Below, piece by piece: positions 9,358-51,081 of a stretch of 64,000 bases of DNA; the stretch's first letter is position 1; the number at the start of each line of letters is the position of its first letter. Origin of the DNA: Natronosalvus amylolyticus (GTDB taxonomy: Archaea > Halobacteriota > Halobacteria > Halobacteriales > Natrialbaceae); the NCBI RefSeq assembly GCF_024298845.1, contig NZ_CP101156.1:2294001-2358000 (forward strand). The letters run 5' to 3'. The translations under genes were made by a program, and so were the position numbers. The notes beneath the pieces are model-generated. The model ran no database searches, had not been told where the DNA came from, and saw only the letters and a program-made list of their open reading frames with translations.

Positions 9358-9368
9358 CTCCACCCGCG

Positions 9369-9374
9369 TTTTTT
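9369..9374 (+). terminator. T6 tract after the receiver-ATPase gene
   Basis: Six T's begin 11 bases after the stop codon of the upstream gene, as expected for archaeal oligo-T transcription termination. The remaining 265 bases to the convergent giant gene show nothing else I can support. Confidence 0.45.
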
Positions 9375-9639
9375 CGGCGGCGATCCGTGCCTCACCTGAC
9401 GTCCCGGTCGACAAGTGGATTGTCGAAGGTGAAGATTGATGTCTGAGTCGATAGGTGAACGCAGCCAGTGAGCACTCTCGAGCGTCGTCTATGGGGACAA
9501 ACGGCGTCAATCCCCGTTATGACCTCTCCGTTCAAGCGCTCATCTTGGATGGACCGGCCGAACTCGAGGTGTTAGAAAATCGAACAACCATTTTCAAAGT
9601 AGACGGTCAGAACGCCATAGTCGACGGCGGGGCTGTCAA

Positions 9640-12600
9640 TCAGACGTCTCTTCGCACTCCCCGGAATCGGGTCGACAGTGCGAAGAGGAGGACAGCGAGG
9701 ACGGCGGCAAGCACGCCGAAACCTGGGATACTGTCGTCGTCGGATCCCTCGGTGTCGACTGCGTCTGCAGGACCATCGTCGTCAACGGAACCGTCATCGA
9801 CCTGCGTGTCGTCGTCCTGCGAATCATCCGTGTCGTCTTCATCGCTGTCATCCGCGTCGGTGTCATCTTCGTCGCTATCGTCTTCATCAGCATCGTCTGT
9901 GTCGTCCTCATCGGCATCATCTTCGTCGCTATCGTCTTCATCAGCGTCATCGGCATCGTCTTCGTCGCTATCGTTATCAGTTGCGTCCGAGTCGTCGGCA
10001 TCATCGTCGTCCGCGTCATCCTGCGAATCATCTTCGCCGTCCGAGTCGTCCGCGTCGTCTGAGCCACCCGAGCCATACCCACCATCGGCGTCATCCTCGT
10101 CGCTATCGTCATCGTCAGCATCGTCCTCATCCGAATCGGCAACCGAGAACGTCAGCGTCTCAGTTGCTTCGTTACCGGCTTCGTCGGCGACGTGGAATGT
10201 CACGTCGTAGCTTCCGCCGTCGGCAACCTGGTGTGTGTGAGTCGTTCCACTCGAGTCGATCGACGTCTGCTCGGAATCGGTCTGTGACTCGCCGTCGACG
10301 ACCAACTCGATCGAGCTCACGTCGATGCCCGAGAGATCGTCTTCGTAGGTGAACTCGAGGGTCACGGTCTCGGTTCCCGCGTCGAACTCGTGGCCGTCAG
10401 CGGGTCCGATCGAATCGATTGTCGGAGCGGTCGTGTCGGTGATTACGGCCCCGTACGTCGAGAAGCCCGACACGCTGCCGACGAGATACGGATCATCGCC
10501 GATTCCGTAATCCACTGAGGTGTCCTCGATCGCCGTCCACTCACCGGTTGTCGAGTCGTAGTGAGCCAGGTCCACGTCGGTCGCATCGAAACCGGCCGGG
10601 AGTTCATCCTCGTCGATCGCCATTGCGATCTCGGCTCCCTCGAGGTGGGTGTCGAGCAGTCCGGGGAGTTCGGTCTGCAAGAAGCCGACGCCGTGAGCGC
10701 CGTCCTCGAGGTTCGCGTTGGTTTCACTCTCGGCGAGTGCTAGCGCCAGGTTCTCAGCCTGGACGGCCGCATTGACGTCATCGACCACATCGAGGATGAT
10801 CTGTACGTCGAGTCCTTCGATCTCGATGACGTCATCCTCGAGCGTGAACGGGTAGTGGACCACGGACGAGGAGGCGTTGCCCTCGTTACCGGCGCGGTCG
10901 ATTCCGGTCACGTCGACGGTGTGCTCGCCCGACTCATTGCCGAATTTGAGCGCTCCCGTGAAGGTCGTGTTGTCAGCGTTGCTCGAGTCGATCGTCACCG
11001 ACGGATCGTCGTCCATCGTGGACGCGCTCGTGGAGATGTCCTCGACGGTCACTTCGATCTCGGGTTCGTCAACGAGCGGTTCGTCACTCTCGACGATGAT
11101 GGTGGCGTCGTCGCCCGTGACATCCTCGAGGCTGACCGACAGCGTTGGATCCTCGCGGTCGATCACGAGCGTCTCGTCGGCGTCGACCGTTCCTGCGTGA
11201 TCGAGTTCGTCAACCGCGATGACCGACAGCGCGTACTCGCCGTCGTCAGGGAGGTTCTGGAACGGAACGTCGGCAATCCAGGTGTCCCCGGCGTCGTGGG
11301 TCGCGTCCGCGGGGACGACGTACGTCGTCTCGAGCGAGTCGATCAACAGCGTCACCCTCTCGAGGTCGAGATCGGCCTCGACGTCGATCGTCACGCTGGC
11401 GTCGTCGTTCGCGTACACCACGTCGTTTCCAGTTGCGGGGTCGGTCTCTGTCGAGTAGCCGTCGACATCGACGATAGTCGGTTCGACCACTGGATCGGAA
11501 ACGTCGATCCACCCGGCGTTCATGCCACCGAGTTGGAGGTCGTAGTGACCAGGCTCGTCCGGGGTGAACGTGATGTTGATCGCTCCCAGGTGGTAGAACC
11601 CGGGCGAAAGCGTCACGTTCTGGGTTCCCACCACTTCGGTCTCACCCGTCTCGTCGTGTGTCGCCGTCAGTTCGATCTCTTCGGTCCCTTCGATATTGCC
11701 CGCCTGGTAGATAGACCCGACCACGTGCGTCTCCTGGCCGTAGGCAATCTCGCTCTCGGTGGCAGCTGCCGCAATCACCTGGATATCGGATTCGGCAGGT
11801 TCGACGTCCACCGAGCCGGCGTTCCTGCCATCGAGTTCGAGATCGTAGTGACCCGGTTCGTCCGGTGTGAAGGAGATATTCAGTGCACCCAGGTGATAGT
11901 ATCCCGGCTCGAGCGTCACATTTTGTGTGCCGATAACCGCCGTCTCGCCTGTTTCGTTGTGCGTCGCCGTCAGTTCGATTTCTTCGGTTCCTTCGATATT
12001 GCCCGCCTGATAGATTGACCCGATTACGTACGTCTCCTCGCCCTCGATCAGTTCGACGTCAGCGGTGGACGCCGCAATCACCCGGATATCGGACTCGGCA
12101 GGTTCGACATCCACCGAGCCGGCGTTCCGGCCATCGAGTTCGAGGTCGTAGTGGCCCGGTTCGTCCGGGGTGAAGGTGATGTTGAGCGCACCCAGGTGGT
12201 AGTATCCCGGCTCGAGCGTCACATTTTGTGTGCCGACGACCTCCGTCTCGCCCGTCTCGTTGTGCGTCGCCGTCAGTTCGATCTCTTCAGTTCCCCCCAC
12301 GTTCCCTGCCTGGTAGATCGACCCGATCACGTACGTCTCCTCGCCCTCGATCAGTTCGACGTCAGCAGTCGACGCTGCAATCACCTGAATATCCGAGACG
12401 GCTGGTTCTACCTCCACCCAGCCGGCGTTCCGACCATCGAGTTCGAGGTCGTAGTGACCCGGTTCGTCTGGGGTGAAGGTGATGTTGATCGCTCCCAGGT
12501 GGTAGTATCCCGGCTCGAGCGTGACTTGCTGGGTTCCAACCACTTCGGTCTCGCCCGTCTCGTTGTGCGTCGCCGTCAGTTCGATTTCTTCGGTCCCTTC

Positions 12601-19761: not shown

Positions 19762-22700
19762 TCACTCCCTTTTACGGAGACCTAACATGCCAGCTGCCAG
19801 AAGGGCGAGTACTGCGGTGATGAAACCGAACCCGGGCAAGCTGTCGGAGCTTCCACCATCGTCGTCATCGCTGGTAGCCATTTCGTCGTCTTCGTCGCTC
19901 TCGCCCTCAACGGCGTCATCGCCATCTCCGTCATCATCATCATCTGCGTCGTCCTCATCGCTGTCGTCCTCGTCGCTGTCGTCCTCGTCGCTGTCGTCCT
20001 CGTCATCTGCGTCGTCCTCATCGCTGTCATCTTCATCCGCGTCGTCCTCATCGCTATCGTCCTCATCGCTATCATCTTCGTCGCTGTCGTCCTCGTCGCT
20101 GTCGTCCTCGTCGCTGTCGTCCTCATCGCTGTCATCCTCGTCGCTGTCGTCCTCATCGCTGTCATCCTCGTCGCTGTCGTCCTCATCGCTGTCATCCTCG
20201 TCGCTGTCGTCCTCATCGCTGTCATCCTCGTCGCTGTCGTCCTCATCGCTGTCATCCTCGTCGCTGTCGTCCTCATCGCTGTCATCCTCGTCGCTGTCGT
20301 CCTCATCGCCGTCACCCACCGCCGATTGCCACTCGAGTTCGGGATACGATTCAGTTAGCAGCCACGTCGTCTCGAAATCGAGCGCAGACATGTTTTCCCC
20401 AGCGGCGTCACCGATCATTTCGGTCGTCTCGAGGCCGGTAACTCCGTCGTAATCACCGTCGCTACTCGCGGTCGATTGTCCAGTGGCGTCGATATCCCAG
20501 TACGACCCGGTCACCGAACCGATCTGATAGGCAACGAGTCCCCCGTTGTCGCTCGAGCCGTCGACGGTCCCGGTCGCGTAGGAATTGATTACGTCACCGC
20601 CGTTCTGGCCCACGAGGCCGCCGAGCCCTTGTGAGCCCCAGGCGCCGGTAACGTCACCCGTCGCGTACGACTGGCTGATGGTACCGTCGTTTTGCCCGGC
20701 GAGTCCGCCACCGTTGAAGACGTTAGATTGGAGGAAGACGTCGGCACTCGAGAACGATTGGGTTACGTTCCCCTGATTGCTCCCGACCAATCCTCCTGCA
20801 CGGTTGGTCGTCCCGGTAACGTCTCCACTCGAAGACGCTCGGTGTATCTCACCGGTGTCCGTGTTCCGACCCGCAAGTGCGCCCGTCGGAGTCGATCCGG
20901 TGATGTCGACGTCCTCGAGGTGGACGTTCTCGATCATCCCGCCGTTCTGGGAGAACAGGCCGACGTCCATCGAGCCGTCGATTGTGAGCCCGTTGATCGT
21001 ATGGCCAGCCCCGTCGAAGTGACCGGTGAAGCCGTCGAAGGAATCGCCGACCGGTTCGAATCCGTCGCCATCGTTCCACTGCCCGGTGAGACTGGCACCG
21101 ATGTCGCTCCCCAGGACATAGTGGGCGTCGGGATCGGCGTTCATCGCTTGCAAGTCGTGATCGTCCTTGATGACGTAGGGGTCTTCGGGAGTCCCGTCGC
21201 CATCCATAGCATCGAGAACCGCATCCACGTCATCCGGGGCTTCGGGGCTTGGATCGCTGAACGTCGAGGCAACTGACACCATGCCGGTCGAGCTGTCGTT
21301 CCCGGCAATGACTTCATAGAGGTACTGTTCGCCGTGCTCGAGATCGTCGGTCTCGAGCGTCACGGCCACGTCGTAGGTTTCCCCTGGGCCGAGGGTGACT
21401 TCTTGGCTCTCGAGAACGGTGCCGTCAAAGTGAATCTCGACCGTTCTAGTGCTCGATTCGCTGGCGACGTTCTCGACGGTTGCTGAAATGCTGACCTCGT
21501 CGCCCGGTTCGTCGATCTCGATTGACGTTGACAGGCCGCTCACTTCGAACGCGACGGGGTCGTCCTCGTGTTCCACCGCGATGTGTCCAAGGGTGCCGAG
21601 TTGGACCCGTGAATCCACGCTGGAACCACTCACGCCTGCTTTCAGAGCGTACAGGTTCCCATCATCACTGCCGATATAGACGGTCCCATCAGCGACCGTC
21701 GGTGACGAGTAGATCGAGGAGTCCGTTGTGTAGTTCCAGATGTCGGAACCGTCAGCGGCGTCCAGGGCGTAGACAGTTCCATCCCCGCCGCCGACATAGA
21801 GGGTGTCATCGGCGACCGTCGCTGACGAGTAGAACCAGGAATCCGTCGTATAGTCCCACACGTCGGATCCATCGTCGGCATCGAGTGCGTAGACGGTGCC
21901 GTCGTAACTCCCGACGTAGACGGTGCCCTCGGCAACCGTCGGGGTCGAATAGACCGAGCCATCCGTCATCACGTCCCATAGTTCCCTCCCGTCGTCGGCG
22001 TCGAGCGCGTACACGGAACCGTCGTAACTCCCGACGTAGACGGTGCCATCCGCAACCGTTGCCGACCCCTCCGAGTACCAGCCAAGTCCGTCGAAATCCT
22101 GGTGCCACTGTTCGACGCCGGTCTCGAGATCGATGGCATACCAGTTCTCGGTCGCCTCACCAGCGTTGTGGTCGTATCCATGGGCACCGGCGTAGATCGT
22201 CCCGTCGTCGATCGTCGGCGACGGACTGATCAGGTCGCCATCGGTCTGGAAGCGCCACAGTTCGGTTCCCGTCTCGGCATCGAGCGCATACAGGTTGCCA
22301 TCGTTACTTCCGGCAACGACGATCCCGTCTGCGACCGACGGTGACGTAAACACGACGCCATCCGTCTCAAAGCGCCACGCTTCCGTCCCGTTAGTGGCGT
22401 TTAGCGCGTAGATGTTCCCGTCGAAACTCCCGATATAGACCGTCCCATCCACGACGGCCGGCGACGATTGAACCGATTCGTTGGTCTCGAAGCTCCATAG
22501 TTCCGTTTCGGTGTCCGTATCGATCGCATAGATGGTGTCGTCATCGCTGCCCACGTAGGCAACGCCATCGACCACCGTCGGTGAAGAGAACACGCGCTCG
22601 TCCGTCGTGAACTGCCACATATCTGTCTGCAACGCAACCGACTGGGTGGTCTCTTGCCCATCAACGCCGATTTCCACATCAGTCTCCGTCACCGCCCCGT

Positions 22701-24993
22701 ACCCGTCCGCATTCGCACGCAGGTGATACACTCCTGCTCGAGCCTCGAGGTGATAGGTTCCATCCGCGTCGGTTTCGGTTGTGGCGACGAGCTCATCGCC
22801 CTCGAGGAGCTGGACGGTTGCGCCGTCGAGCGCGAGTTCACCGCTCGGGTCGGTTACCGTCCCAGTGATCGTCCCGTTCTCGTGGATGGCGATCGGTCTC
22901 GTTGTCTGAGCAGTGTGTCCGCTCTCGTCTTCGACCTTCAGCGTCACGTCGTAGTTGCCCCGCTCGTCGAACGAGTGGCTTGCCTTGGGATCGGTCGTCG
23001 TTTCGTCGACGGTGCCGTCACCGGTGAAATCCCAGCGATACTCGACAATGTCGTCGGTTGCCGTCGAGTAGCCCCCATCGACGGTGAACGGCTCGCCCGG
23101 TCTCGGAGGCATCGGTTCGATAGCGAAGGAGGGGACCACCGTGTCGTATTCGTGGTGACCCAACGCCTGCTGTAAGACACGTGAATCGGTACTCGAGCCC
23201 GCCGGTGCGGCGTACAGTGCGTACAGGTGATCGTCGTTACTTCCGACGTATACGACGCCATCGACGACCGTCGGTGCGGAGCGAACCTCGTGGTCGGGTT
23301 CGAACGTCCACGCGATGGTTCCGTCGTCGGCGGAAATTCCGTGGACTGCGCCGGTGTTTGCGTTTCCGTCGTAGCTCCCGACATACACCATCTCGCCCAT
23401 CACCGTTGGCGAGGTGACAGAGCCGTGTGTCGTCGTACTCCATTTTTCTTCACCAGTTTCTGGATCGATCGCGTACAGGGTATCGTCGTAGCCACCGAGG
23501 AAGACCGTTCCATTGGCCACCGTCGGCGATGAACTGATCAGGCCCCCCGTCTTGAATCGCCACTCTCGCTCTCCAGTGCTGGCGTTCAGGGCATACAGAT
23601 GGTCGTCCCAGCTTGCAACGTAGACGGTTTCATCGACGACGGTCGGAACCGACGTGACAAGACTCCCCGTCGTGTAATTCCACTGCTCGGTGCCCGTCTC
23701 CGCCTCGAGTGCAAAGATCTTCCCGTCGTAGTTGCCGATGTAGACCGTGCCATCTACCACGGCCGGCGCGGTGTTTCTGAACTCTCTATCCGTGGAGACG
23801 TTCCACTTCTCCGTCCCATTGTCCGCATAGACCGCGTAAATGTGCTCATCGCGACTAGCAGCGTAGACGACTCCATCTTCGACCGTCGGCGAGGTGACTG
23901 AGCCGTCAGTCGTATAGTTCCACTGCTCGGTTCCATCGGCCGCATCGACAGCGTACAGGTTGTCGTCGTCGCTGCCAAAGTAGACCGTGCCGTCGACGAC
24001 CGTCGGTGCATCGCCTACTGGGCCGCCGATGTCGGTGAAGCGCCACAGCTCCGATCCGTCGGTAGTGTCCACCGCGTACACGTATCCTTCGCTGGTGTGG
24101 GCTCCATAGCTCCCGATGTAGGCAACCCCATCGACGACCGTGGGTGCGGCAACGACCGATCCATCGGCGGAGAAGTTCCACAACTCAGCGCCCGGCTCCG
24201 TTGGCAGGGGTTCGTACACGTACGGGAATTCGACATCGATTGTCTGGGTCGTCGTATCGGTTGTGCCATCCGGCTCGATGACCGTCAGCGTCACGTCGTA
24301 CTCGCCAGCCGCATCGAAGACATGGGCGAGTTCGGGGTCGGTCGTCGTTGTATTGATCGACGGATCACCCGTCGAGTTCCACTGATAGGTGACGTCCGCG
24401 GGTGTCGATGCACTCGCATCCAGCGTTACCGGCTCGCCTTCAACTGGAGCTGTGGGGGTGACATCGAACGACGCGTGCAATGGCTCGGAATTGAGTTCGA
24501 CGGCGTCTGTCAGTCCTTCGCCCTCGTAACTGGCCCCATCTTCGTCACCGATCGACTGAACCGTCACCTCGAGGTTCGAGAGCCCTTCGTCAGTGACCTC
24601 GAGCGTGCCGGTCGCGATGACGATTTCGTCCTCAGTCGCCGTGAGCACGTCATCACCGTACACGATATCCAGGGTACCGGTTCCGTCGTCTATCACCGGC
24701 TCCTCGGTTTCGTACAACGGTTCGCCGGCCGGTTCGACCTCGAGGAGCGCTGTGGTCTCGGTGTTCGAGAGGTCGATCTCCAGCGCGTACGCCCCGACAC
24801 TATCAGCATTTTCCACGACTATTTCGTAGTCGACGGTCTCTCCGACGTCGACACGCGTCTCGTCGACCGAGACGTTCACGGCGATTTCGTCCTCGGAAGC
24901 GGCGAACGCCCCGCTCGCCAGCAGGGCTGTACACCCGATCACCACGAGAAGAATGAGCGTCAGACTCGCCAGGTAATGTCGTGACTGGCTCAT
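19762..24993 (-). CDS. surface protein with cohesin-like domain, PKD, two PQQ propellers, GLUG repeats and PGF-CTERM
   Basis: A 1743-aa exported protein. After a signal peptide (1-31) comes a cohesin-like domain (about 33-175; recognised from VDVGETVDYEIVVENADSVG, AYALEIDLS and the ATGTLEV strand), then PKD (about 175-261), a PQQ beta-propeller (about 263-608), a second PKD (about 618-704), a carboxypeptidase-regulatory-like domain (about 706-789, GTVTDPSG core), a second propeller (about 791-1114), a CARDB domain (about 1148-1248), a region of GLUG motifs (about 1251-1531, GGLVGxNxG units), a long DEDDS tract and a PGF-CTERM signal. The start codon overlaps the stop of the dockerin gene (ATGA), indicating translational coupling. 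The cohesin could dock the partner's dockerin outside the cell (inference). The tail duplicates that of the 1661-aa gene. Confidence 0.88.
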   Translation of the reverse strand: MSQSRHYLASLTLILLVVIGCTALLASGAFAASEDEIAVNVSVDETRVDVGETVDYEIVVENADSVGAYALEIDLSNTETTALLEVEPAGEPLYETEEPVIDDGTGTLDIVYGDDVLTATEDEIVIATGTLEVTDEGLSNLEVTVQSIGDEDGASYEGEGLTDAVELNSEPLHASFDVTPTAPVEGEPVTLDASASTPADVTYQWNSTGDPSINTTTTDPELAHVFDAAGEYDVTLTVIEPDGTTDTTTQTIDVEFPYVYEPLPTEPGAELWNFSADGSVVAAPTVVDGVAYIGSYGAHTSEGYVYAVDTTDGSELWRFTDIGGPVGDAPTVVDGTVYFGSDDDNLYAVDAADGTEQWNYTTDGSVTSPTVEDGVVYAASRDEHIYAVYADNGTEKWNVSTDREFRNTAPAVVDGTVYIGNYDGKIFALEAETGTEQWNYTTGSLVTSVPTVVDETVYVASWDDHLYALNASTGEREWRFKTGGLISSSPTVANGTVFLGGYDDTLYAIDPETGEEKWSTTTHGSVTSPTVMGEMVYVGSYDGNANTGAVHGISADDGTIAWTFEPDHEVRSAPTVVDGVVYVGSNDDHLYALYAAPAGSSTDSRVLQQALGHHEYDTVVPSFAIEPMPPRPGEPFTVDGGYSTATDDIVEYRWDFTGDGTVDETTTDPKASHSFDERGNYDVTLKVEDESGHTAQTTRPIAIHENGTITGTVTDPSGELALDGATVQLLEGDELVATTETDADGTYHLEARAGVYHLRANADGYGAVTETDVEIGVDGQETTQSVALQTDMWQFTTDERVFSSPTVVDGVAYVGSDDDTIYAIDTDTETELWSFETNESVQSSPAVVDGTVYIGSFDGNIYALNATNGTEAWRFETDGVVFTSPSVADGIVVAGSNDGNLYALDAETGTELWRFQTDGDLISPSPTIDDGTIYAGAHGYDHNAGEATENWYAIDLETGVEQWHQDFDGLGWYSEGSATVADGTVYVGSYDGSVYALDADDGRELWDVMTDGSVYSTPTVAEGTVYVGSYDGTVYALDADDGSDVWDYTTDSWFYSSATVADDTLYVGGGDGTVYALDAADGSDIWNYTTDSSIYSSPTVADGTVYIGSDDGNLYALKAGVSGSSVDSRVQLGTLGHIAVEHEDDPVAFEVSGLSTSIEIDEPGDEVSISATVENVASESSTRTVEIHFDGTVLESQEVTLGPGETYDVAVTLETDDLEHGEQYLYEVIAGNDSSTGMVSVASTFSDPSPEAPDDVDAVLDAMDGDGTPEDPYVIKDDHDLQAMNADPDAHYVLGSDIGASLTGQWNDGDGFEPVGDSFDGFTGHFDGAGHTINGLTIDGSMDVGLFSQNGGMIENVHLEDVDITGSTPTGALAGRNTDTGEIHRASSSGDVTGTTNRAGGLVGSNQGNVTQSFSSADVFLQSNVFNGGGLAGQNDGTISQSYATGDVTGAWGSQGLGGLVGQNGGDVINSYATGTVDGSSDNGGLVAYQIGSVTGSYWDIDATGQSTASSDGDYDGVTGLETTEMIGDAAGENMSALDFETTWLLTESYPELEWQSAVGDGDEDDSDEDDSDEDDSDEDDSDEDDSDEDDSDEDDSDEDDSDEDDSDEDDSDEDDSDEDDSDEDDSDEDDSDEDDSDEDDSDEDDSDEDDADEDDSDEDDADDEDDSDEDDSDEDDSDEDDADDDDDGDGDDAVEGESDEDDEMATSDDDDGGSSDSLPGFGFITAVLALLAAGMLGLRKRE
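19790..19921. repeat. 132-bp exact duplicate of 241-372
   Basis: Second copy of the identical PGF-CTERM-encoding stretch; the first mismatches are at 19789 and 19922. See the copy at 241-372. Confidence 0.9.
20101..20310. repeat. 30-bp higher-order tandem repeat in acidic tract (7 copies)
   Basis: Seven consecutive 30-bp units; the five from 20131 to 20280 are exact, the first differs by one base and the last by its final base. Each unit holds two synonymous but different codings of the same five residues (DEDDS), so the unit of amplification was 30 bp rather than the 15-bp protein unit. Less regular 15-bp units continue to about 19960. Confidence 0.92.
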
Positions 24994-26574: not shown

Positions 26575-26814
26575 TCAGTGCGTAGTTACCTCTGGGTAAT
26601 GTAGTAGCAGGGCAGCTTTCGTGGGTGGTTTGGTCTCGAGGATTCGTCGGCTATCGATGACAGGGGTGGACATCGCGTCGAATGCTTCGACCATGAAGGC
26701 GAACTCGTCGCAGTTGGTGACGACGAGTGTGCTTTCGCTTGCCTCGAGGACGGGCAGATCGGTTTCCATCCGGGTTCGAGGGTAGTCGACTATCGATTCG
26801 ACCGTTTGTATCAT
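26575..26814 (-). pseudogene. C-terminal remnant of a UDP-glucose 6-dehydrogenase
   Basis: 79 codons whose core (LEASESTLVVTNCDEF, then AFDAMSTPVIDSRRI) aligns with the C-terminal substrate-domain end of the UDP-glucose dehydrogenase encoded at 32983-34266 ([31 protein letters not shown]). The NAD-binding domain, catalytic Cys region and most of the protein are missing, and residues flanking the core are unrelated. It lies between two surface-protein genes, so it is a relic of an earlier duplicate or rearrangement rather than a functional gene. Confidence 0.7.
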
Positions 26815-26835: not shown

Positions 26836-29022
26836 TCACTCGCTATTGTTTTCTTCCGTCTCATCCCCGTTTCCAGCGTCTGCAGATGACTCTTCACCAC
26901 CTTCTGGGCCGGGATCCGATTCTTCGTCGGGATCATCCGAATCGTCTGCGCTATCCGACGACTCGTCTGTATCTTCTTGTTCATCCGATCCGTTCGGATC
27001 CGTGGGTTCCTCTGTGTCGTCCGAATCATCTTGCCCGTTCGAATCCGAAGGGTCTTCTGTGTCTCCCTCATCTTGATCCCCAGGCTCGTCGGGTTCATCA
27101 TTCGGGTCGGTATCTTCGTCCTCAGGCTCGAGTTCATCATCTCCGTTGTCATCCGTGGCAAACACCGAAACCGTCGTTGAGGCGCTGTCATCGCTCGTTC
27201 TGACCGTAACCTCGAACGACACATCTTGTTCAACGGGATAGGTTGTATATCCCAGTTCGACGAGTTGCGTTGCCTCTCCAGCGACCGTCACCGACTGAGA
27301 ATCGACCACCTCACCGCCGACAACCAGTTCGAGGGTGTCCGTCTGCTCCGTCGTCGCGTTGTTGGCTAGATTCGCCACTACCAGCAGCTGTTCACCAGCC
27401 TCGACCGGGGCGTTCGTCTGATCGATGACGACCGTGAGTTCGCCATCGGGAGATCCGTTGTTGGCCTCGTCGTTCTCGTTTCCGTTTTCGGCCTCACTTC
27501 CGTTCTCGGTCGCTGCAGCGATCGATGACTCGAGCTGAAGGGTTCCCGCCGAATCGAACACGAAGACAGTATCACCCTCTTCGTTCCACACCTGTCGCTG
27601 GTATCCCCAGTACAGGGTGTCGGCCGTATTGGTACCCTGGCCCGTGACAATTGTCACGTCCGCCCCTGGCTCGAGGGTGAATCCGCTCGGAAAGTCGAAC
27701 GGAGATATATTGCTGGCAGGGATCCCATGCTCGTCTTCGATCCGCCAGCCGGTGAGGTCGAGTGGTTGTTCACCAGTGTTGCGTAGCGTGATGTATTCCT
27801 CCTGTGGGTCATCACCGAGAAGGGAATAATCGACGAGCTCGAGTGAGACGGGCGTTTCCGTTTCCGGATCTTCCGTGGCTGCGTCTCCATTCGTGGCTTC
27901 TGCTGTCGCCTCAGGGTCGCGATAAGCTGCGAGCAAACTCCGTTCTGCCTCGAGGTCGGTCACGATGGTACTCCAGGTGCTGCCATCGCTGGCGAGTGCC
28001 CCCCAACCGGGGCCGACGTCTTGTGATTCGGTCCAGATGATTTCCCCGTCGTCGATAACCGCAAACTCACTGTCAGAGCGATTGGCAACGAAAACCCGCA
28101 TCCCATCATACGAGACGCTGAGATCCGCTGCAGCCCACATGCCGATATCAGTCTCCCAGCGCACTTCGCCCGTCATCGACTCGAGCGCGGACAGTGTTCC
28201 ATCGGCACCCGAAGTGACGATCGTCTCCCCATCTCTGGACAGTTCGACCCACCCGCCGTAGTCGTCCGTCTCCCAGATGGGGTTTCCCTCGAGATCGAGG
28301 ACGATCGTCCGGCCGTCGTCCGTGCCCGCAACCACGATTTCGTGCTCGAGGGAGATGTCTACCGAAAGGACGTCTTCATCGTAGTCGTAACGCCACAGTT
28401 CGGCCCCACTGTCGTCGAACAGTCGGACACCTGGTTGGCCCGTGGGTTCGGTTCCTTCTTCCCAGTAGTGGGCTGTGGCGACCGCGACGTATTCCTCAGC
28501 GATTGCAACCGCATACCCGACTGCATCCTCGAGCACCGACGACCACAGTACGGTTCCCTCGTCGTCCGCAACGCCGACACTGCCGACGGTGTCGTGGGGA
28601 TATGTGACCGACGCCATCGCGGTCCCATCGGACGTCGCATCGATATCCCAGAGGCCGGGATGTTCGATGAGCGGGCCATCGCCAGTCTCGAGATCCAGCG
28701 GACCGAACACGTCGGCATCCATCCAGGCGACGATGACGGTTTCGGGCTCGCGAACGAGCAGATGACTGATGGAGCGATCGACGATGAGCGGGATTAGCTG
28801 GCCGTCGCGCTCGTCATCGTAGACCATCACGTTTCCGTCGTCGAATCCGTACACCACGATATCCCCTAATGTCGAGACTCCGGTGGTGAGCCCCGGTTCG
28901 TCGTGCGTGTCTTCAAGGATCTGTTCGACACCGTCCTGGGAAGCAACTGCGTGACGCCCTCGTGCCGTGACACCCACAGCCAACAGGCTCGCCCCCGCTT
29001 CCATGAGGTCTCTCCGACGCAT
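26836..29022 (-). CDS. Tat-exported beta-propeller protein with lamin-tail (LTD) and CARDB domains
   Basis: About 728 aa from ATG 29022; a GTG at 29037 is an alternative, but the ATG begins a classic Tat signal (MRRRDLMEAGASLLAVG). Residues about 30-370 form a PQQ/WD-like propeller (recurrent GxxWxxD blades, GADGTLSALESMTGEVRWET). Residues about 390-500 match a lamin-tail domain (EEYITLRNTGEQPLDLTGW, LEPGADVTIVTG), about 545-635 a CARDB domain, and the rest is a long D/E/S/N/P-rich tail with no PGF-CTERM or membrane helix, so it is probably secreted or held non-covalently. LTD domains in prokaryotes occur in secreted nucleases and adhesins (family knowledge). No catalytic motif seen. Divergent from the hydrolase gene at 29333 with a 295-bp spacer lacking any gene I can support. 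Confidence 0.85.
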   Translation of the reverse strand: MRRRDLMEAGASLLAVGVTARGRHAVASQDGVEQILEDTHDEPGLTTGVSTLGDIVVYGFDDGNVMVYDDERDGQLIPLIVDRSISHLLVREPETVIVAWMDADVFGPLDLETGDGPLIEHPGLWDIDATSDGTAMASVTYPHDTVGSVGVADDEGTVLWSSVLEDAVGYAVAIAEEYVAVATAHYWEEGTEPTGQPGVRLFDDSGAELWRYDYDEDVLSVDISLEHEIVVAGTDDGRTIVLDLEGNPIWETDDYGGWVELSRDGETIVTSGADGTLSALESMTGEVRWETDIGMWAAADLSVSYDGMRVFVANRSDSEFAVIDDGEIIWTESQDVGPGWGALASDGSTWSTIVTDLEAERSLLAAYRDPEATAEATNGDAATEDPETETPVSLELVDYSLLGDDPQEEYITLRNTGEQPLDLTGWRIEDEHGIPASNISPFDFPSGFTLEPGADVTIVTGQGTNTADTLYWGYQRQVWNEEGDTVFVFDSAGTLQLESSIAAATENGSEAENGNENDEANNGSPDGELTVVIDQTNAPVEAGEQLLVVANLANNATTEQTDTLELVVGGEVVDSQSVTVAGEATQLVELGYTTYPVEQDVSFEVTVRTSDDSASTTVSVFATDDNGDDELEPEDEDTDPNDEPDEPGDQDEGDTEDPSDSNGQDDSDDTEEPTDPNGSDEQEDTDESSDSADDSDDPDEESDPGPEGGEESSADAGNGDETEENNSE

Positions 29023-29332
29023 ACTCGAGGCTACCACAGATGCCGTGAAAATAACGTATTCACACTGGGCCTGACGGTTTGCTGAATTGGCCTTAGCGAA
29101 GACTGGTTTTTAGGTCTCGAGACAGGTATGGTTGATGTTTTGGCTCGAGTTCGCCATCCAGAGCCAATCGATTGGGAAAATACTAGCAGACCACCACAAT
29201 TAAGTGACGGCGAGCGAACCGTTGTTCAATGGTTAGTAATTTGTCTATTTCTGGCGAGGCTCTCACAGAGGCGCATAATGCGAGAGGACCCGACGGTGAA
29301 TACGTACTCGAGCGAAACACTCGGAGGGGTCG

Positions 29333-32300
29333 ATGATTGGGGTCGATCTCAGCCGTCGAGACGTGTTACGATCAGGTCTTCTGGGGACCGTCGGCGCGGC
29401 CAGCGGTGTGATCGGAACGGCTACCGGCACCGAATCGGCTGGTAGCACGGGGATGGATGTCACCTTGATCCCGGCTGATGGCGATTTTGGATTCAACTAT
29501 CCGTACTATCTGTACGCGCCTGCCGTGGAAGACGCGTTCGACCGACCGATTCTCGTCGAGCCGAACAACACCGGGAGATCCACGAACAACTTCGACGCAC
29601 ACCGTGAGTCTGCTGAGCGATTGATCGAACACGGGACCCCCAGGCGGATCGGTGACGAACTTCGTGTGCCGGTTCTCGTTCCGGTCTTTCCGCGCCCGTC
29701 CTCGAGTCCGGTCGATTGGCAACACTACGTCCATGCGCTCGATGCCGAGACGATGCAGATCGATTCCGGCGATCTCGAGCGCGTAGACGAACAGCTCTTG
29801 CGCATGGTCGAGCACGCGCGAGAACGCCTTTCAGAACGGTCCTATCCCGTCGGCGAAGACATGATCATGAACGGCTTTTCGGCGTCGGGGACCTTCGTCA
29901 ATCGCTTCACCGCCCTCCATCCCGATCGCGTCCGGTCGGTGACTGCCGGCGGTATCAACGGCACCGCAACCTTGCCCCTCGAGGAGGCTGCGGGACGGAC
30001 GGTAGATTTCCCAATCGGTATCGCCGACCTCGAGTCACTCACCGGCGAGGCGTTCGACCGTGACCAGTGGCAGGCCGTCGACCAACTGGTCTACATGGGT
30101 GGGGACGACGAGAACGATACGATCCCCTACGACGATGCCTGGAATTCGGGCCAACGCGAGATCGCCCTCGAGGTGTACGGCGAGCACATGCAAAACGACC
30201 GGATGCCCTACTGCAAGTCGGTCTACGAAGAGGCTGGTGCGACCGGTCGGGTCGAGGTCTACCCCAATATTGGGCACCGCCCCGTCACCGAGGAACTCAT
30301 CGCGTTCCACCGGAAACACGTCGTCCCCCAGTTCGTCGGGTTCGCCGAGCCGCCGGCGATCGGCGAGGAGACGGTAACCGTTCTCGCACGAGCCCAGGAT
30401 ACCCAGGCGTACGAACTGCGCGTTTTCAGTGACGAACGCGGCGAACTCACAGATGCTGTGCGGGAATTCGACCCTGCTGTGGACGACCACGTGCAAGTCC
30501 AGTTGGCGACGCCGCTCGCTGACGGCGAAGACGTGACCGTCGGCCTGTTCGAGCCCGGGAGTGCCAATCAGGGGGCAGCGCTAGCGTCGGAGACCGCCAC
30601 CGTCCACGGGAAGGTAGCGTTCGTCGAGACGCCGGTCGCCGGAGACGAGACGGTGACGATAGCGTACGATCTCTCGACGGTGTATCCGGTTCGAGAGCAG
30701 GCAACGCTCCGTCTCGACACCGAACAGGGCGGAGCAAGCGAGCTGACAGCACTCGAGCCAGGTACCAACGAGACGGTCACCCTCCCTCTCGAGGCAGACG
30801 AACACGGGGTCCCGCTCGAGCAAGGACGGGAGGTGACTGCAACAATCGTCGATGCCGACCCACAGGGTCTCGATCCGGTGGCGACCGACACGAGAACGAT
30901 CGGGGCACCAGCCGAGCCAGCGCTGTCGATCGATGTTGACGTCGAGCGGGCCGTGCTGGCTGGTGAGGCTGTTACTGTCGAGATCGCTGTTCGGGTGATC
31001 GGGGGCGATTCGGACGACCTGACTGATCTTCCGATCGAGTGTGCGGTTGAGGGCGATGTCGTCGACACGGTGACGGTCTCACCATCGGTCGGGGAGACGG
31101 AAACGATCGCTCTCAGCGTTCCCACCGATGGATACGACCGAGACGAACTGACGGTCAGCGCCACCTGGGGAGAAACGACCGACGAGGAGACGGTTATCCT
31201 CGCCACTCAGCCCGCAAATGGGGACGGAAGCGCTGGTGATCCATACCGGATCACCGACGGAACCGAACTCGCGTACGTTGACTTCGATCTTTCCGCCCAC
31301 TTCGAACTCGCCGAAGATATCGACCTCTCCGGATTCGAGCGGTTCGTTCGGATCGGGAGTCTTCGAGAGCCGTTTTCCGGAACCTTCGATGGCCGACAAC
31401 ACGAGATCACCGGAGTCCATATCGAGGAATCCGTCGATCAGTTCGAAGGGATCGGGCTGTTCGGCAACCTCATTGGGGGCTCGATCGAAAACGTCCACCT
31501 CGTAGACGTACACGTGACCGGTGACGATTTCGTCGGCGGCGCCGTCGGGATGGCCCAGGCACCCGCAGAGATTTCCCGCGTCACCGTCTCCGGAACCGTC
31601 GTCGGCGGGGACAACGTCGGCGGGATCATCGGCGGGACCTCCACCGGCGAGGACGGCGAAGACGTCGTCATCTCCGAGACCGCTTCGGACGCGAGTGTGC
31701 AGGGAGAACGAAAGGTTGGGGGCATCATGGGTCAATCCTCCGGTGACCGCATCACGAACTCCTATGCGAGTGGTTCGGTCAGTGGACATCGCGACGTCGC
31801 CGGCGTGCTCGGACTCAACGTCTTCGGCGGGGTTGTCAGCACGTCTTACGCCAGCGCCACACTCGAGGGTGATGGCGGGGGACTCGTCGCGAATAATCCG
31901 GAGGGCAGCGTCACCGACTCCTACTGGGACGTCGACGCGACAGGAATATCGATCTCTGATGGCGGTGCCACGGGGTTGCGCACTGAGGAGATGACCGGTG
32001 ACGATGTCGTGACTACGCTGTCGGGCTTTGACTTCGAAGAAACGTGGGCGGTGACCGACGAGTATCCCGTACTTGCATGGGAGCATGCCTTCTCAATCCA
32101 ACAACTTTCGGAGTTGGATACACACGTCGTCGGCGAACCAGTTGAGGTGACGGTCACCGTGGCCAACACCGGGCCAACGGCGATTGAAGAAACCCTCGAG
32201 TTCCGGTTCGCTGGCGAGGTCGTCGAGCGCCGACCGATCTCGTTGGATGCAGACGAGTCGACTACCCTCGAGTTCGAAGCCGATACCGACGGCCTCGAGA

Positions 32301-32881
32301 GAGGCGTACACGAGTACGGCGTGGCCCACCGCACGGCCAGCGTCACCCTCATCGACGCGGATAGCCCAGTGTTCGAACTCACCGACGTTGCCTTCCTCGA
32401 ATCCGTCGAGAAAGATACCGAGCCATCCCTCTCAGTGACGATTCGGAACCTGGGGGTAGCTGATGAGCAAGCAGTCGTCGTCAGGGTGACCGACGACTCG
32501 GGAGACACCGTACTGAGCGACAGGCTGATTGAAGCCTCACTCGAGAGTGGCGAGTACCTCGAGCGGACGTTCTTCCTCGACACGGCAGAACTCTCAATTG
32601 GGGAGTACGAACTCACCGTCGAAACGGACGATGACGACTATACACGCACGTTTGAGGTTCAAGACACCAGTGACGACGATGCGGAGACGTCGTACGATGA
32701 CAGTGTGACCAGGCCAGACGACAGCGTGACCCAGGATGATGACAGCGGTTCTCGGGATGTTTCCGAGGCAGACGACCAGACCGGATTTGGATTCGGAAGT
32801 GCCCTCGCAGGGATCGCTGGAGTTGGCTATCTGCTCAAACGACGAATGAGTTCTGCTACCGATCAGGAGAACGAGTCGTGA
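29333..32881 (+). CDS. Tat-exported alpha/beta-hydrolase fused to CARDB-like domains and GLUG repeats
   Basis: 1182 aa. The Tat signal (LSRRDVLRSGLLGTVG) starts at residue 6. An alpha/beta-hydrolase domain (about 40-335) shows the nucleophile elbow GFSASG (Ser about 183) and a late His in NIGHRPV (about 315), consistent with an esterase or feruloyl-esterase-like PHB depolymerase relative; the acidic triad member is not certain. Beta-sandwich domains of CARDB type follow (about 340-620), then a GLUG region (about 624-917) paralogous to those in the 511-aa and 1743-aa proteins, two more CARDB domains, a D/S-rich linker and a C-terminal helix preceded by TGFGFG and followed by LLKRRM. The latter resembles PGF-CTERM with Thr instead of Pro. 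A surface-anchored esterase acting on polymer or glycan is inferred; the substrate is unknown. Confidence 0.85.
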   Translation: MIGVDLSRRDVLRSGLLGTVGAASGVIGTATGTESAGSTGMDVTLIPADGDFGFNYPYYLYAPAVEDAFDRPILVEPNNTGRSTNNFDAHRESAERLIEHGTPRRIGDELRVPVLVPVFPRPSSSPVDWQHYVHALDAETMQIDSGDLERVDEQLLRMVEHARERLSERSYPVGEDMIMNGFSASGTFVNRFTALHPDRVRSVTAGGINGTATLPLEEAAGRTVDFPIGIADLESLTGEAFDRDQWQAVDQLVYMGGDDENDTIPYDDAWNSGQREIALEVYGEHMQNDRMPYCKSVYEEAGATGRVEVYPNIGHRPVTEELIAFHRKHVVPQFVGFAEPPAIGEETVTVLARAQDTQAYELRVFSDERGELTDAVREFDPAVDDHVQVQLATPLADGEDVTVGLFEPGSANQGAALASETATVHGKVAFVETPVAGDETVTIAYDLSTVYPVREQATLRLDTEQGGASELTALEPGTNETVTLPLEADEHGVPLEQGREVTATIVDADPQGLDPVATDTRTIGAPAEPALSIDVDVERAVLAGEAVTVEIAVRVIGGDSDDLTDLPIECAVEGDVVDTVTVSPSVGETETIALSVPTDGYDRDELTVSATWGETTDEETVILATQPANGDGSAGDPYRITDGTELAYVDFDLSAHFELAEDIDLSGFERFVRIGSLREPFSGTFDGRQHEITGVHIEESVDQFEGIGLFGNLIGGSIENVHLVDVHVTGDDFVGGAVGMAQAPAEISRVTVSGTVVGGDNVGGIIGGTSTGEDGEDVVISETASDASVQGERKVGGIMGQSSGDRITNSYASGSVSGHRDVAGVLGLNVFGGVVSTSYASATLEGDGGGLVANNPEGSVTDSYWDVDATGISISDGGATGLRTEEMTGDDVVTTLSGFDFEETWAVTDEYPVLAWEHAFSIQQLSELDTHVVGEPVEVTVTVANTGPTAIEETLEFRFAGEVVERRPISLDADESTTLEFEADTDGLERGVHEYGVAHRTASVTLIDADSPVFELTDVAFLESVEKDTEPSLSVTIRNLGVADEQAVVVRVTDDSGDTVLSDRLIEASLESGEYLERTFFLDTAELSIGEYELTVETDDDDYTRTFEVQDTSDDDAETSYDDSVTRPDDSVTQDDDSGSRDVSEADDQTGFGFGSALAGIAGVGYLLKRRMSSATDQENES

Positions 32882-32982: not shown

Positions 32983-34266
32983 TTACCAGGTCAACCCTTC
33001 GTAGATAATTCCGTCTCGAGGCTCGACGATTCGTCGCCCATCGACGATGATCGGGGTGGCCATCGCGTCGAATTCGTTGTCCAGAGTGGAGAACTCGTCC
33101 CAATCCGTGACGACGAGTGCGCCTTCGCTACCCTCGAGGGCGGCTTCGGCGGAGTTAGTGTATTCTACGTCCGGAAAGCGCTCACGCATCGGCTCGGTAG
33201 CGACCGGGTCGTAGGCGACGACGTCTGCACCTGCTTTCTGGAGGGATTCGAGGATCGGGATTGCTCGCGAGTTCCTGATATCGTCTGTCCGTGGTTTGAA
33301 CGCCAGTCCAAGGACTGCGATTCGCGCACCTTCGAGGTCGACGTGGCTCTCGAGGAGATTGAGCAAGCGTTCGGGTTGGCGCTCGTTGATCTCGACAGCG
33401 GCCTCGAGCAGGGCTGGGTCGTACCCGTGCTGGGTGGCAGCGGCGATGATGGCCGCGACATCTTTCGGGAAACAGGAACCGCCCCAGCCGACGCCGCTCC
33501 GCAGGAACTGTTCTGAGATGCGATCATCGAGACCGATGGCGTCCATCACCTCGTAGGCGTCGAGACCAAACTCCTTACAGATGTTCCCGAGGTCGTTGAC
33601 CAGGCTGATCTTCGAGGCAAGAAAGGCGTTGTTGGCGTACTTGATCATCGAGGCAGTCGCTGGATCGGTCTCGACTATTGGTATCGATTGTTCCTCGAGC
33701 AGGGGCTCGAAGACCAACTGGAGTTGTTCGGTTGCCCACTCAGAGTTCGTCCCAAAGACCAGTTTGTCCGGATTCTGGAAGTCTGCGACGGCGCTTCCCT
33801 CCCGGAGGAACTCGGGGTTCATGCCCATTTCAACCTGGTCGTTGTTTGCACCGCGTTGGAGCGCTGGCTCGAGTGTATCTTCGATGCTCATCGGCGTCAC
33901 CGTACTCTTGATGATCACGAGATGCCGGTTGGCTTTGTCGGAGAGGGCTTAGCCCGTTGCTTCGGCGGCCGCCTCGAATGCGCTCAAATCGATGCTCCCA
34001 TCGGAGTTCGAGGGTGTGCCGATGGCGAGAAACGTCACGTCAGAGTCCGGGATCGGGTCATAGGACGTTGTGGCCTCGAGTGCGTGTTGGGTGTGAATCT
34101 CGAGGAGGGTGTCTAATCCAGGTTCGTCGATGGGGGCGGTGCCGTTATTGATCGACTCGACGATGGTCTCGTCGATATCGATGGCCGTGACTTCGTGGCC
34201 GAGATCAGCAAAACAGGCCGCCATTGTCGTCCCAACATAGCCGCTTCCTATGACCGTAATGTGCAT
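32983..34266 (-). pseudogene. aglM: UDP-glucose 6-dehydrogenase interrupted by an in-frame TAA
   Basis: Read through, this is a full-length (about 427-codon) UDP-glucose/UDP-sugar 6-dehydrogenase oxidising UDP-glucose to UDP-glucuronate for surface glycans; the haloarchaeal representative is AglM. The first 105 codons hold the NAD-binding motif GSGYVG; a TAA at 33949-33951 then stops translation where the family has Glu or similar, and the same frame continues with the middle and C-terminal domains, including [10 protein letters not shown] and the catalytic-Cys motif GGSCFPKD. There is no frameshift. A GTG at 33918 might allow reinitiation of a 311-aa piece lacking the Rossmann N-terminus. 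A one-base change (GAA to TAA) or a sequencing error explains it. It is divergent from the nucleotidyltransferase gene at 34376. Confidence 0.88.
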
Positions 34267-34375
34267 TGGGTGCGTCGTGTTGCTGTGGTGCGATGAACGT
34301 TTTGGTATTCATACAGGTGATGATACATTGATAAGCCAGAAAGTTATTGTATGGTGAGTTAACAGATATTATCTG

Positions 34376-35122
34376 ATGAAAGCAGTCGTACTCGCCGGGG
34401 GGAAAGGAACACGACTTCGACCACTCACTGACGACAAACCAAAAGGGATGGTCGAGGTCGACGACGAGCCTATTTTGACCCACTGTTTCGACCAGTTACT
34501 CGAGTTGGGAGCCGATGAATTAGTCGTGGTCGTGGGCTATCTCAAAGAGCGGATTATTGACCACTACGGGGACGAGTATGAGGGCGTCCCGATCCAGTAC
34601 TGCCACCAGCGCGAACAGAAGGGGCTGGCACACGCGCTGTTGACCGTCGAAGAACACATCGACGACGACTTCATGTTGATCCTGGGGGACAACATCTTCG
34701 ACGCGAATCTGGGCGATGTGGTTCGTCGACAACGTGAAGAGCGTGCAGATGCAGCGTTTTTGGTCGAGGAGGTACCCTGGGAAGACGCTTCGCGGTATGG
34801 AGTCTGTGATACGAACAAATACGGTGAGATCACCGACGTGGTCGAGAAACCAGAAGAGCCCCCATCGAATCTCGTGATGACCGGCTTCTATACGTTCTCG
34901 CCCGCGATCTTCCACGCCTGTCATCTGGTGCAGCCCAGCAATCGCGGTGAGTATGAGATCAGCGAGGCCATCGACCTGTTGATTCAGAGTGGGCGCACCA
35001 TCGATGCAATCGGCATCGACGGCTGGCGGATCGACGTTGGCTATCCCGAGGATCGGGATGAGGCTGAAAAGCGGTTGCAGGAGGGGGTTGAAGGCGAAGT
35101 TGCCCTCGCTTCGGACGACTAG
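34376..35122 (+). CDS. sugar-1-phosphate nucleotidyltransferase (AglF/RmlA-like)
   Basis: 248 aa. The signature AGGKGTRLRPLT binds the nucleotide and K/D positions PKGM and GDNIF fit the nucleotidyltransferase fold that joins a sugar-1-phosphate with UTP or dTTP. The length matches short, C-terminally minimal archaeal members such as AglF, which makes UDP-glucose for N-glycosylation. The 3' end continues directly into a second, paralogous gene 45 bases on. Its place beside UDP-glucose dehydrogenase suggests a UDP-glucose to UDP-glucuronate branch. Substrate specificity cannot be read from sequence alone. Confidence 0.88.
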   Translation: MKAVVLAGGKGTRLRPLTDDKPKGMVEVDDEPILTHCFDQLLELGADELVVVVGYLKERIIDHYGDEYEGVPIQYCHQREQKGLAHALLTVEEHIDDDFMLILGDNIFDANLGDVVRRQREERADAAFLVEEVPWEDASRYGVCDTNKYGEITDVVEKPEEPPSNLVMTGFYTFSPAIFHACHLVQPSNRGEYEISEAIDLLIQSGRTIDAIGIDGWRIDVGYPEDRDEAEKRLQEGVEGEVALASDD

Positions 35123-35166
35123 AACTGTACAAGCGGTTTTTACGACTCGAGGTGAACCCCTCGAGT

Positions 35167-35877
35167 ATGCAGGGTGTTGTGCCAGCAGCCGGTGAAGGGA
35201 CCAGGCTTCGGCCGATGACTGAGCAACGACCGAAGGGACTCGTTCCGGTGAACGGTCAGCCGCTGCTCACTCATGTCTTCGAGACGTTGCTCGAGGCAGG
35301 TGTCGACGAGTTAGTTGTCGTCGTTGGGCATCTCGCCGATCAGATCATCGAGTACTACGGTGATGGCTTTCGAGAGGTGCCGATCACGTACGTCCACCAA
35401 CGCGAACAACGGGGCCTCGGCCATGCCGTGTCCCTGACTGAGCCCCACGTCTCGGGACCGTTCGTGGTGTTGAACGGAGACAACGTCTTCGTGGACGGGA
35501 TTGAGCACGTTCTTGAGCGAATGTCTGAGCCCGACGTGGATGCCGTGTTGGCCGTCGAGTCACTCGACCGAGAACAGGCAAGAGACACTGGGGTGCTCGA
35601 GGTTTCTGCAGGGCGCGTTACCGGTATCGTCGAGAAGCCCGAAAAGCCGCCGTCGACGCTGGTGACCACTGGCTGTTACGTGCTCCCCGAAGCAATATTC
35701 GATGCGCTTGCGCTGGCACAGCCATCTGATCGTGGGGAGTACGAACTCAGCGAGGCAGTTGGCCTTTTAGTTTCCGCTGGGTCAGTTGTGGAGCCCGTTG
35801 AGATAGCTGGTCCCCGAGTGAACGTTAACACGGAAGAAGATCTCGAGCGGGCAGGTCGTTTGCTCGAGGAGCGTTAG
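35167..35877 (+). CDS. second sugar nucleotidyltransferase, tandem paralogue
   Basis: About 236 aa from ATG 35167, which places the first strand (QGVVPAAGEGTRLRPMT) at the N-terminus; a GTG 15 bases upstream is possible. It shares with the preceding gene the GTRLRP loop, the HQREQ(K/R)GL(A/G)HA segment, the GDN(I/V)F metal-site motif, VEKPE(E/K)PPS and the RGEYE(I/L)SEA motif, so the pair arose by tandem duplication. The nucleotide loop differs (PAAGEG instead of LAGGKG), which may mean a different sugar or base. Likely co-transcribed with the upstream gene. Confidence 0.87.
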   Translation: MQGVVPAAGEGTRLRPMTEQRPKGLVPVNGQPLLTHVFETLLEAGVDELVVVVGHLADQIIEYYGDGFREVPITYVHQREQRGLGHAVSLTEPHVSGPFVVLNGDNVFVDGIEHVLERMSEPDVDAVLAVESLDREQARDTGVLEVSAGRVTGIVEKPEKPPSTLVTTGCYVLPEAIFDALALAQPSDRGEYELSEAVGLLVSAGSVVEPVEIAGPRVNVNTEEDLERAGRLLEER

Positions 35878-35927
35878 GTGAGTCGGTTGTTCGAGGAGTG
35901 TTAGACAAGTGGTTTTCTCAAAGAGCG

Positions 35928-36914
35928 TTAGGAGTTTCTGACCAGTGGATCGTACCAGTCTTCGTTCTCTCGATACCAGTCGATGAATTTTGCAACGCCT
36001 TCGCGGATATCCGTGGTAGGCTCGTAATCGAGCAACTCGTTGGCCTTCTCGATATTCGCGTGGGTGTGTTCGGCGTCGCCTTCTCTCGCGTCATCGAATT
36101 CAATCTCGAGGCTCGGATCGATTTCGTCGCGGATGACTTCCGCAAGAGTGAGGATATCGATGTTGTCGGTAGAGCCGACGTTCATGATCTCACCGTCGGC
36201 CCGGTCGTCCTCGAGGAGGTGTTTGTTGACGGTGAGAATATCATCGATATAGGTGAAATCACGGGTTTGCTCACCATCGCCATAAATTACTGGGGGTTCG
36301 CCATGGAGACAGCGCGAGACGAAGTTCGTCATGGCCATGTTTGGGCGCATACGCGGGCCGTAGACGGTGAAGTATCGCAAGGCGACCGTCGGAAGACCGT
36401 AGATTTCGTTGTAGACGCGTGTGTACTGTTCGGTGGCGAGTTTGGAAACGCCATACGGTGAGACTGGCGTCGTGAGATGATCCTCGTCGTAGGGGAGGTA
36501 CTCCGGCTTGCCGTACACCGAGGACGAAGAGGCGACGACTACTCGGTCGACGTCGTGCGTGCGGGAAGCCTCGAGGACGTTGATCGTCCCATCAACGTTG
36601 TAGGCGTTGACCTTCTTCGGTTCCTCGACGCTCTTTCGGACGCCTGCCTGAGCTGCCTGATGGTAGACGACATCGGTGTTGGCGACGAGGTCGTCGACAA
36701 GTTGTTCGTCGGTTATTGAACCCTCGACGAACTCGTAGGTCGTGTTGGCTTTCGTGGCGGCTTTTTTCGCCGCGTCGATATTGTGTTCCTTTATTCCGAG
36801 GTCATAGTACGGCTCGAGGTTGTCGAGAACGGTTACGTCGTGGCCGGCTCTGGTGAGATCTTCGGCGATGTGCCCGCCGATGAATCCCCCACCGCCAGTG
36901 ACGAGAATCTGCAT
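35928..36914 (-). CDS. NAD-dependent nucleotide-sugar epimerase/dehydratase
   Basis: 328 aa, extended short-chain dehydrogenase of the GalE/UDP-glucuronate-epimerase group. It starts with the cofactor loop GGGGFIG (residues about 7-13), has the Ser-containing SSSSVYG and the catalytic YGVSK (Tyr/Lys), and the family's ALRYFTVYGPRMRP and TRDFTYIDD segments. It would interconvert UDP-sugars supplied by the neighbouring nucleotidyltransferases and dehydrogenase. The UDP-glucuronate 4-epimerase subgroup is suggested by length and the RMRPNMA segment, but this is inference. It is convergent with the nucleotidyltransferase pair, 50 bp apart. Confidence 0.9.
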   Translation of the reverse strand: MQILVTGGGGFIGGHIAEDLTRAGHDVTVLDNLEPYYDLGIKEHNIDAAKKAATKANTTYEFVEGSITDEQLVDDLVANTDVVYHQAAQAGVRKSVEEPKKVNAYNVDGTINVLEASRTHDVDRVVVASSSSVYGKPEYLPYDEDHLTTPVSPYGVSKLATEQYTRVYNEIYGLPTVALRYFTVYGPRMRPNMAMTNFVSRCLHGEPPVIYGDGEQTRDFTYIDDILTVNKHLLEDDRADGEIMNVGSTDNIDILTLAEVIRDEIDPSLEIEFDDAREGDAEHTHANIEKANELLDYEPTTDIREGVAKFIDWYRENEDWYDPLVRNS

Positions 36915-50010: not shown

Positions 50011-51081
50011 CAGAGGGTGTCATACAATTCATCTCATACCACGAGCTTGGTTCGGCCCAGATTTTCGCCCTGTTCGTGGTTCGTGATGGCGACGATCACT
50101 CGGAGACACAGTCCAAGATACGCTGTGTACTCGCGCATGGACGCGCCTCGGGCGCGCAGCGTCCCGAGGCCGCAGTCTGAACACGCTCCAAACGTTCGCT
50201 CAACTTGCGTTCGTCGCTTGTATGTATCAGCGAGGATCGAACGCTTGAGCGTCACATCCTCGGTGAATTCGCTGATTCGGTTTTCGACACGGTATTCGAT
50301 ATCGAGCGGTTCGCTGGTGTTTCGTGGGTTGTACGGGGCGATCGGCACGACTCCTGCTTCCAGCAGGAAGTCGTGCCAATCGAGGATGTCGTAGCCACTG
50401 TCTCCAAGCATCCAGATCGGCTGTTTGACGGCGAGCGCGTCACGTGTGACGCGCATCGCCGTCTCCTTCGAGGCCTGTTTCGCCTGCGTAAACTCCGCTG
50501 CAATCGGAATCTTTGGCCCTGCCGAAACAATCGTGAGACCGAACCCGTAGTAGTAGGCTTCGGCCGTTGGATCGTATTCCACGACGCGTCATCGTTCCAC
50601 GCAGGGGCTTCGAGATCGGTTGAATCGATGGGAAGGTAGAGTCGAGCAGGCCGCGGATAGCGGCCTGCTCGACGAGGCGGCGGAATACGTTGTCAACGAC
50701 CAGTCCGAGGTCAGTGAGGAAGCGATCGACCGCGTCTCTCGACGGCGGTCGATCGAAGCTACAGCTGGTCCAGACGGCCGTGTTCTGGAGTTCTCGGGTG
50801 ACAGGACGAGGCCCGTAGATTCCCTTGTAGAAGCAGTGAAGAAAGCCTTTGAACAGTTCTGGCGGGTGATGATCTCGTGTTCGCCCCCGGCGAGCGGGGG
50901 CGAACACGTCATACTCGCTGAGAAAGTCAAAGTCGAGGTACTCGAAGAGCGGAAGTGTCTCGACAGCCACGAGATTAAAGAACTCGTCTATCCAAGGCTC
51001 ATCGTGCAGGGTTTAAGTGCTGCTGGACACGGCTTCTCAACCCTGCCCTTTCGTGTGCGACGTATTCTATGATACCCTCTG
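50011..51081 (-). mobile_element. decayed IS5-like element (~1.07 kb)
   Basis: Inverted terminal repeats CAGAGGGTGTCATACAAT at the left and, reversed, CAGAGGGTATCATAGAAT at the right match in 16 of 18 positions. No clear target duplication. The transposase inside is broken. The 262 bases between the element and the glycosyltransferase at 48585-49748 hold no supported gene. Confidence 0.72.
50034..50970 (-). pseudogene. IS5-like transposase, frameshifted
   Basis: The N-terminal part (start 50970) has LFEYLDFDFLSEYDVFAP and a helix-rich DNA-binding region up to about 50600; the second part (50582-50034) continues in another frame with DPTAEAYYYGFGLTIVS, GDSGYDILDWHDFLL and the late Arg/Glu-containing KRRTQVERTFGACSDC and NHEQGEN. 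The first catalytic Asp segment around 50590-50620 is disturbed by small indels. Family assignment rests on the general DDE pattern I recognise in haloarchaeal IS5-group enzymes. Confidence 0.75.

Follow-up and report, generated by a model that had tools for sequence, protein, structure and literature searches.

A probable young nonsense pseudogene, aglM2, beside an intact aglM1 in Natronosalvus amylolyticus

The window, i.e., the whole stretch of 64,000 nucleotides analysed in this study, harbors a gene for an AglM-type UDP-glucose 6-dehydrogenase, here named aglM2, that is interrupted by a premature TAA at codon 106. This aglM2 is a second AglM-type gene and probably a young nonsense pseudogene, a recurrently lost copy whose loss is tolerated through an intact aglM1. 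A recent single-base substitution would have changed a Glu codon to TAA at codon 106, and translation would break off midway through the N-terminal dehydrogenase domain, presumably yielding no active enzyme. Since the intact aglM1, located elsewhere on the chromosome with aglF1 nearby, can supply UDP-glucuronate as predicted from its reading frame, the cell would tolerate the loss. The stop is present in this assembly (genome G000, 4.2 Mb in five contigs, 99.94% complete), and we favor it being real in the organism over a sequencing error.

The aglM2 frame and its neighborhood

Starting from the ATG at 34266, 105 open codons are followed by the TAA at 33951–33949, after which the frame remains open until a TAA at codon 428 (Table 1). 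Residues 1–105 corresponded to positions 1–105 of the AglM model NF041297 (158 bits alone) and the open reading frame 3' of the stop to positions 118–429 (544.3 bits alone), while the complete frame, read with X in place of the stop, resulted in a full-length match of 733.9 bits, above the cut-off of 670. All motifs were found intact, with GSGYVG before the stop and two stretches of 26 and 11 residues after it. GxGYVG and GGSCFPKD, which we take to be the NAD-binding and the catalytic-Cys motif, respectively, are both present as in other AglM-type enzymes, and the single uninterrupted frame of such enzymes is broken by the TAA at codon 106. The sequence-only reading of an in-frame TAA in an otherwise complete UDP-glucose dehydrogenase with preserved catalytic motifs was thus borne out.

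Alignment with the orthologue from another genome of the genus (G007) passes through codon 106 in one piece. Based on this, the family match, and the intact motifs, the two halves far exceed a chance pair of open reading frames. Codon 106 was compared in a codon alignment of 25 rows, consisting of the window copy, G007, and 23 further members of the AglM2 clade. It encodes Glu in 22, Asp in one, and Asn in one, with TAA in the window copy, which differs from G007 by one base at this codon. An original codon such as GAA, as had been guessed, agrees with the Glu of these relatives, including the nearest one. By sequence, the structures nearest to the G007 orthologue were 4a7p and 3vtf, both UDP-glucose dehydrogenases with near full-length alignments.

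The gene sits in a surface-glycan cluster together with aglF2, another nucleotidyltransferase, and an epimerase. Elsewhere in the window, two overlapping frames of 182 and 176 aa (50034–50970, minus strand) resemble by eye one frameshifted transposase, and a 1743-aa open reading frame (19762–24993, minus strand) resembles a surface protein with a long SDEDD repeat tail near its C-terminus. With regard to a suppressor tRNA, no tRNA genes were found within the 64 kb.

Table 1. Positions in the window of aglM2, its parts, and associated genes.
Feature	Position	Strand	Description
aglM2 frame	32983..34266	-	AglM-type UDP-glucose 6-dehydrogenase; 427 codons + TAA stop; interrupted at codon 106
Premature TAA, codon 106	33949..33951	-	TAA in this row of the 25-row codon alignment
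N-terminal piece, 105 aa	33949..34266	-	Carries the GSGYVG nucleotide-binding motif
C-terminal open frame from GTG codon 117, 311 aa	32983..33918	-	Catalytic-Cys motif GGSCFPKD
aglF2, UTP-glucose-1-phosphate uridylyltransferase AglF	34376..35122	+	Intact; divergent partner of aglM2; NF041313 439 bits, cut-off 400
Second AglF-like sugar nucleotidyltransferase	35152..35877	+	Intact; NF041313 317 bits, under the cut-off of 400
NAD-dependent sugar epimerase/dehydratase	35928..36914	-	Intact; near aglM2 in G007 too
Short relic of a further AglM2 C-terminus	26629..26748	-	Residues 377–417, 56–58% identity, 40 residues; adjoins the gene at 26836–29037

The second copy, AglM1

A search of the genome for a second intact copy, as suggested by the sequence-only reading, identified AglM1 (C1:684464–685789), an uninterrupted frame of 441 codons with a terminal stop only and 57% identity to AglM2. 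It narrowly passed the cut-off of NF041297 (671.5 versus 670 bits) and possessed the motifs GSGYVG, KST, KYANNAF, and GGSCFPKD, as well as the variants NPEFLRMG and LGLSFKPGTDD of two others. An intact AglF-like reading frame, aglF1, lies within about 3 kb. Orthologues of AglM1, each with a terminal stop only, were detected in six of the eight genomes of the genus (G000, G001, G002, G003, G004, and G007), and the two genomes in which it was not detected come from assemblies of lower completeness (91% and 66%).

Since aglM1 is intact and has an intact aglF nearby, UDP-glucuronate synthesis need not depend on the aglM2 locus; AglM1 is observed to be intact and predicted to be active. The earlier suggestion that synthesis would proceed via another gene therefore has a candidate in the same genome. 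Other dehydrogenases were considered as substitutes and rejected. Two genes with about 30% identity (L011 and L012) reached only 188 and 179 bits where the AglM model requires 670 and matched models for UDP-N-acetyl-sugar dehydrogenases better, yet under those cut-offs as well. A further dehydrogenase (C1:560033–561322) matched only a general nucleotide sugar dehydrogenase model in a partial scan. As these three score poorly or generically, AglM1 was counted as the sole replacement.

The AglM2 clade and its repeated damage

A family survey of 125 genomes (E <= 1e-130, a threshold outside which badly broken copies of either kind fall) revealed 129 rows in 112 genomes. The AglM2 clade, defined by at least 72% identity to the window copy, comprised 27 rows from 25 genomes, while the remaining 102 rows were lower. 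By a hand count of the survey rows, a lower-identity AglM accompanies AglM2 in 12 of the 25 genomes and is missing from 13. In a tree of 38 rows picked among the sequences fetched, the window copy pairs with G007 (100/99) within the AglM2 rows (98/93 for 19 rows), and the second copy of the source genome pairs with that of G003 (100/99) in the AglM1 clade of the genus. Among the eight genomes of the genus, G007 harbors the only full-length AglM2 orthologue besides the window copy. It is 92% identical to the latter and open throughout with no internal stop, so that an in-frame stop stands here against an uninterrupted orthologue, as in a nonsense pseudogene. Between G000 and G007, dS amounted to 0.62 for aglM2 versus 1.29 for aglM1 (window 32983–36914 versus L099). 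The aglM2 cluster has possibly been passed from one lineage to another.

Most copies of the clade are intact, and damage was found in several others. Natribaculum luteum (G057, NZ_CP095398.1) harbors an otherwise complete AglM2 frame with a single premature stop, like the window copy, and differs in three respects: its stop is a TAG at codon 298, a position at which the remaining 24 rows carry Gln (L051 1501–2787; L112 3001–4284), the gene lies on a large plasmid, and a search of the genome revealed no further AglM-like gene above about 30% identity. Loss of AglM2 is therefore not always backed by an AglM1-like gene, which counts against simple redundancy. The PLSDB gene table, itself incomplete, lists no CDS at this locus. 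In Natronorubrum thiooxidans (G116), about 1.1 kb of inserted DNA (L091 ~8985–10110) interrupts aglM2 near codon 327 and contains a 294-codon open stretch that looks transposase-like by eye, as judged without a family search. In the sister species G003, most of the region equivalent to window 33158–34376 is missing between flanks of 90% and 91% DNA identity to the window, and about the last 58 codons are left, frameshifted (L103 14434–14666). G001 and G004 carry fragments with a better match to AglM2 than to AglM1, the window itself the relic at 26629–26748 (Table 1), G112 an extra AglM2 copy without about the first 29 residues, which could alternatively be a shorter gene, and a more distant plasmid copy from Salinibaculum litoreum shows a change of frame between residues 94 and 113. 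Internal stops occur in two of the 27 rows at or above 72% identity and in none of the 102 lower rows, a post hoc comparison in which the window copy is one of the two. Judged from these sequences, aglM2 appears to be an accessory copy, and related haloarchaea have disrupted it or lost most of it on several occasions.

In view of this recurrent damage, a true lesion in a copy that the cell can do without is favored over a sequencing or assembly error, which would imply a sense codon at position 106 and an intact aglM2. Such an error is rather unlikely, though it would agree with several observations: the stop rests on one base in one assembly and is one base away from the nearest relative, aglM2 reveals no clear coding decay elsewhere, and the upstream region is kept, the 109-base intergenic stretch between aglM2 and aglF2 aligning to G007 without gaps. 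On the other hand, aglF2, the second nucleotidyltransferase, the epimerase, and the gene at 29333–32881 align to their relatives in one piece over all or nearly all of their length, so that errors do not seem frequent in the local sequence.

Age of the stop and meaning of the loss

Comparison of aglM2 between G000 and G007 resulted in a dS of 0.621 and a dN of 0.0425 (dN/dS 0.068). When the gene is divided at the stop, the first part has a dN/dS of 0.069 and the second part one of 0.068. The intact neighbors revealed 0.046 (aglF2, with 0.055 to G003), 0.111 (second nucleotidyltransferase), and 0.086 (epimerase). Since dN/dS is about 0.07 on both sides, like that of the intact neighbors, the stop appears young, which together with the kept motifs fits the initial view of a young lesion or a sequencing error. 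Changes were polarised against the other 23 rows of the codon alignment, giving 23 replacement to 44 silent changes plus the nonsense change in the G000 lineage and 7 to 30 in the G007 lineage (Fisher p = 0.12), and the branch lengths of the protein tree (0.062 for the window copy, 0.028 for G007) are in line with these counts. At columns conserved to at least 90%, four replacements were found in G000, the stop apart, and four in G007. The larger number of replacements in G000 is compatible with slight relaxation or none, and the lesion is probably too young to show neutral evolution. According to a simple mixture estimate, a share of 0.03–0.10 of the G000 branch would be neutral, with upper 95% limits of 0.14–0.21 depending on the baseline. 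By this estimate, which is rough as silent sites are rather saturated, the stop occupies at most about a fifth of the history of the lineage.

The low dN/dS on either side of the stop would also be expected if aglM2 were functional despite it, either as a two-piece enzyme with reinitiation at the in-frame GTG codon 117, 11 codons past the stop, or by readthrough of the TAA. It is equally expected of a young lesion, and we regard a functional aglM2 as very improbable. The stop lies within the N-terminal dehydrogenase domain, neither piece alone has all motifs, and the intact AglM1 makes a rescue unnecessary. No SD-like site was found in the stretch preceding GTG codon 117. Starts of this kind are common among haloarchaeal genes, so the absence of the site is only weak evidence against reinitiation. 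As the product from this GTG would also have no NAD-binding motif, reinitiation, the other route proposed by the sequence-only reading, was not supported. A working split UDP-glucose dehydrogenase assembled from the 105-aa and 311-aa frames would, if true, explain the uniformly low dN/dS, but seems still less credible. Reassignment of the stop codon was rejected, since the terminal stop of aglM2 is itself TAA and relatives end at the same place, which speaks against readthrough by this means as well.

Hardly any weight is left for an old pseudogene inherited from a common ancestor with G003, the sister of G000 in the AglM1 tree that now is without most of aglM2 at the same place: given a dS between G000 and G003 of 0.45 (aglM1, aglF2) versus 0.62 for aglM2 between G000 and G007, a lesion of that age would imply a neutral share of about 70% of the branch, against the 0.03–0.10 estimated above. 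The substitution counts thus clearly argue against an old lesion, and one common to G003 was rejected.

In Haloferax volcanii, AglM is described as oxidising UDP-glucose to UDP-glucuronic acid for N-glycosylation (PMC5041007). Like this enzyme, aglM2 revealed a full-length match to the family NF041297 with the same motifs; unlike it, aglM2 is interrupted at codon 106 and is a second copy besides an intact AglM1. Disrupted haloarchaeal genes described in section 3.6 of PMC4500146 include point mutations to an in-frame stop. Compared with the pseudogenes of that section, aglM2 is likewise an otherwise complete gene with a single nonsense mutation, in which annotation could mistake an internal GTG or Met for the start, and it differs in the gene concerned, not in kind. 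Altogether, aglM2 is a case of ordinary pseudogene biology. With aglM2 as a probable young pseudogene, annotation should mark it as disrupted and attribute the UDP-glucuronate synthesis of this organism to the intact AglM1. On a small scale, AglM2 would illustrate how a spare sugar-nucleotide gene is disrupted time and again among haloarchaea.
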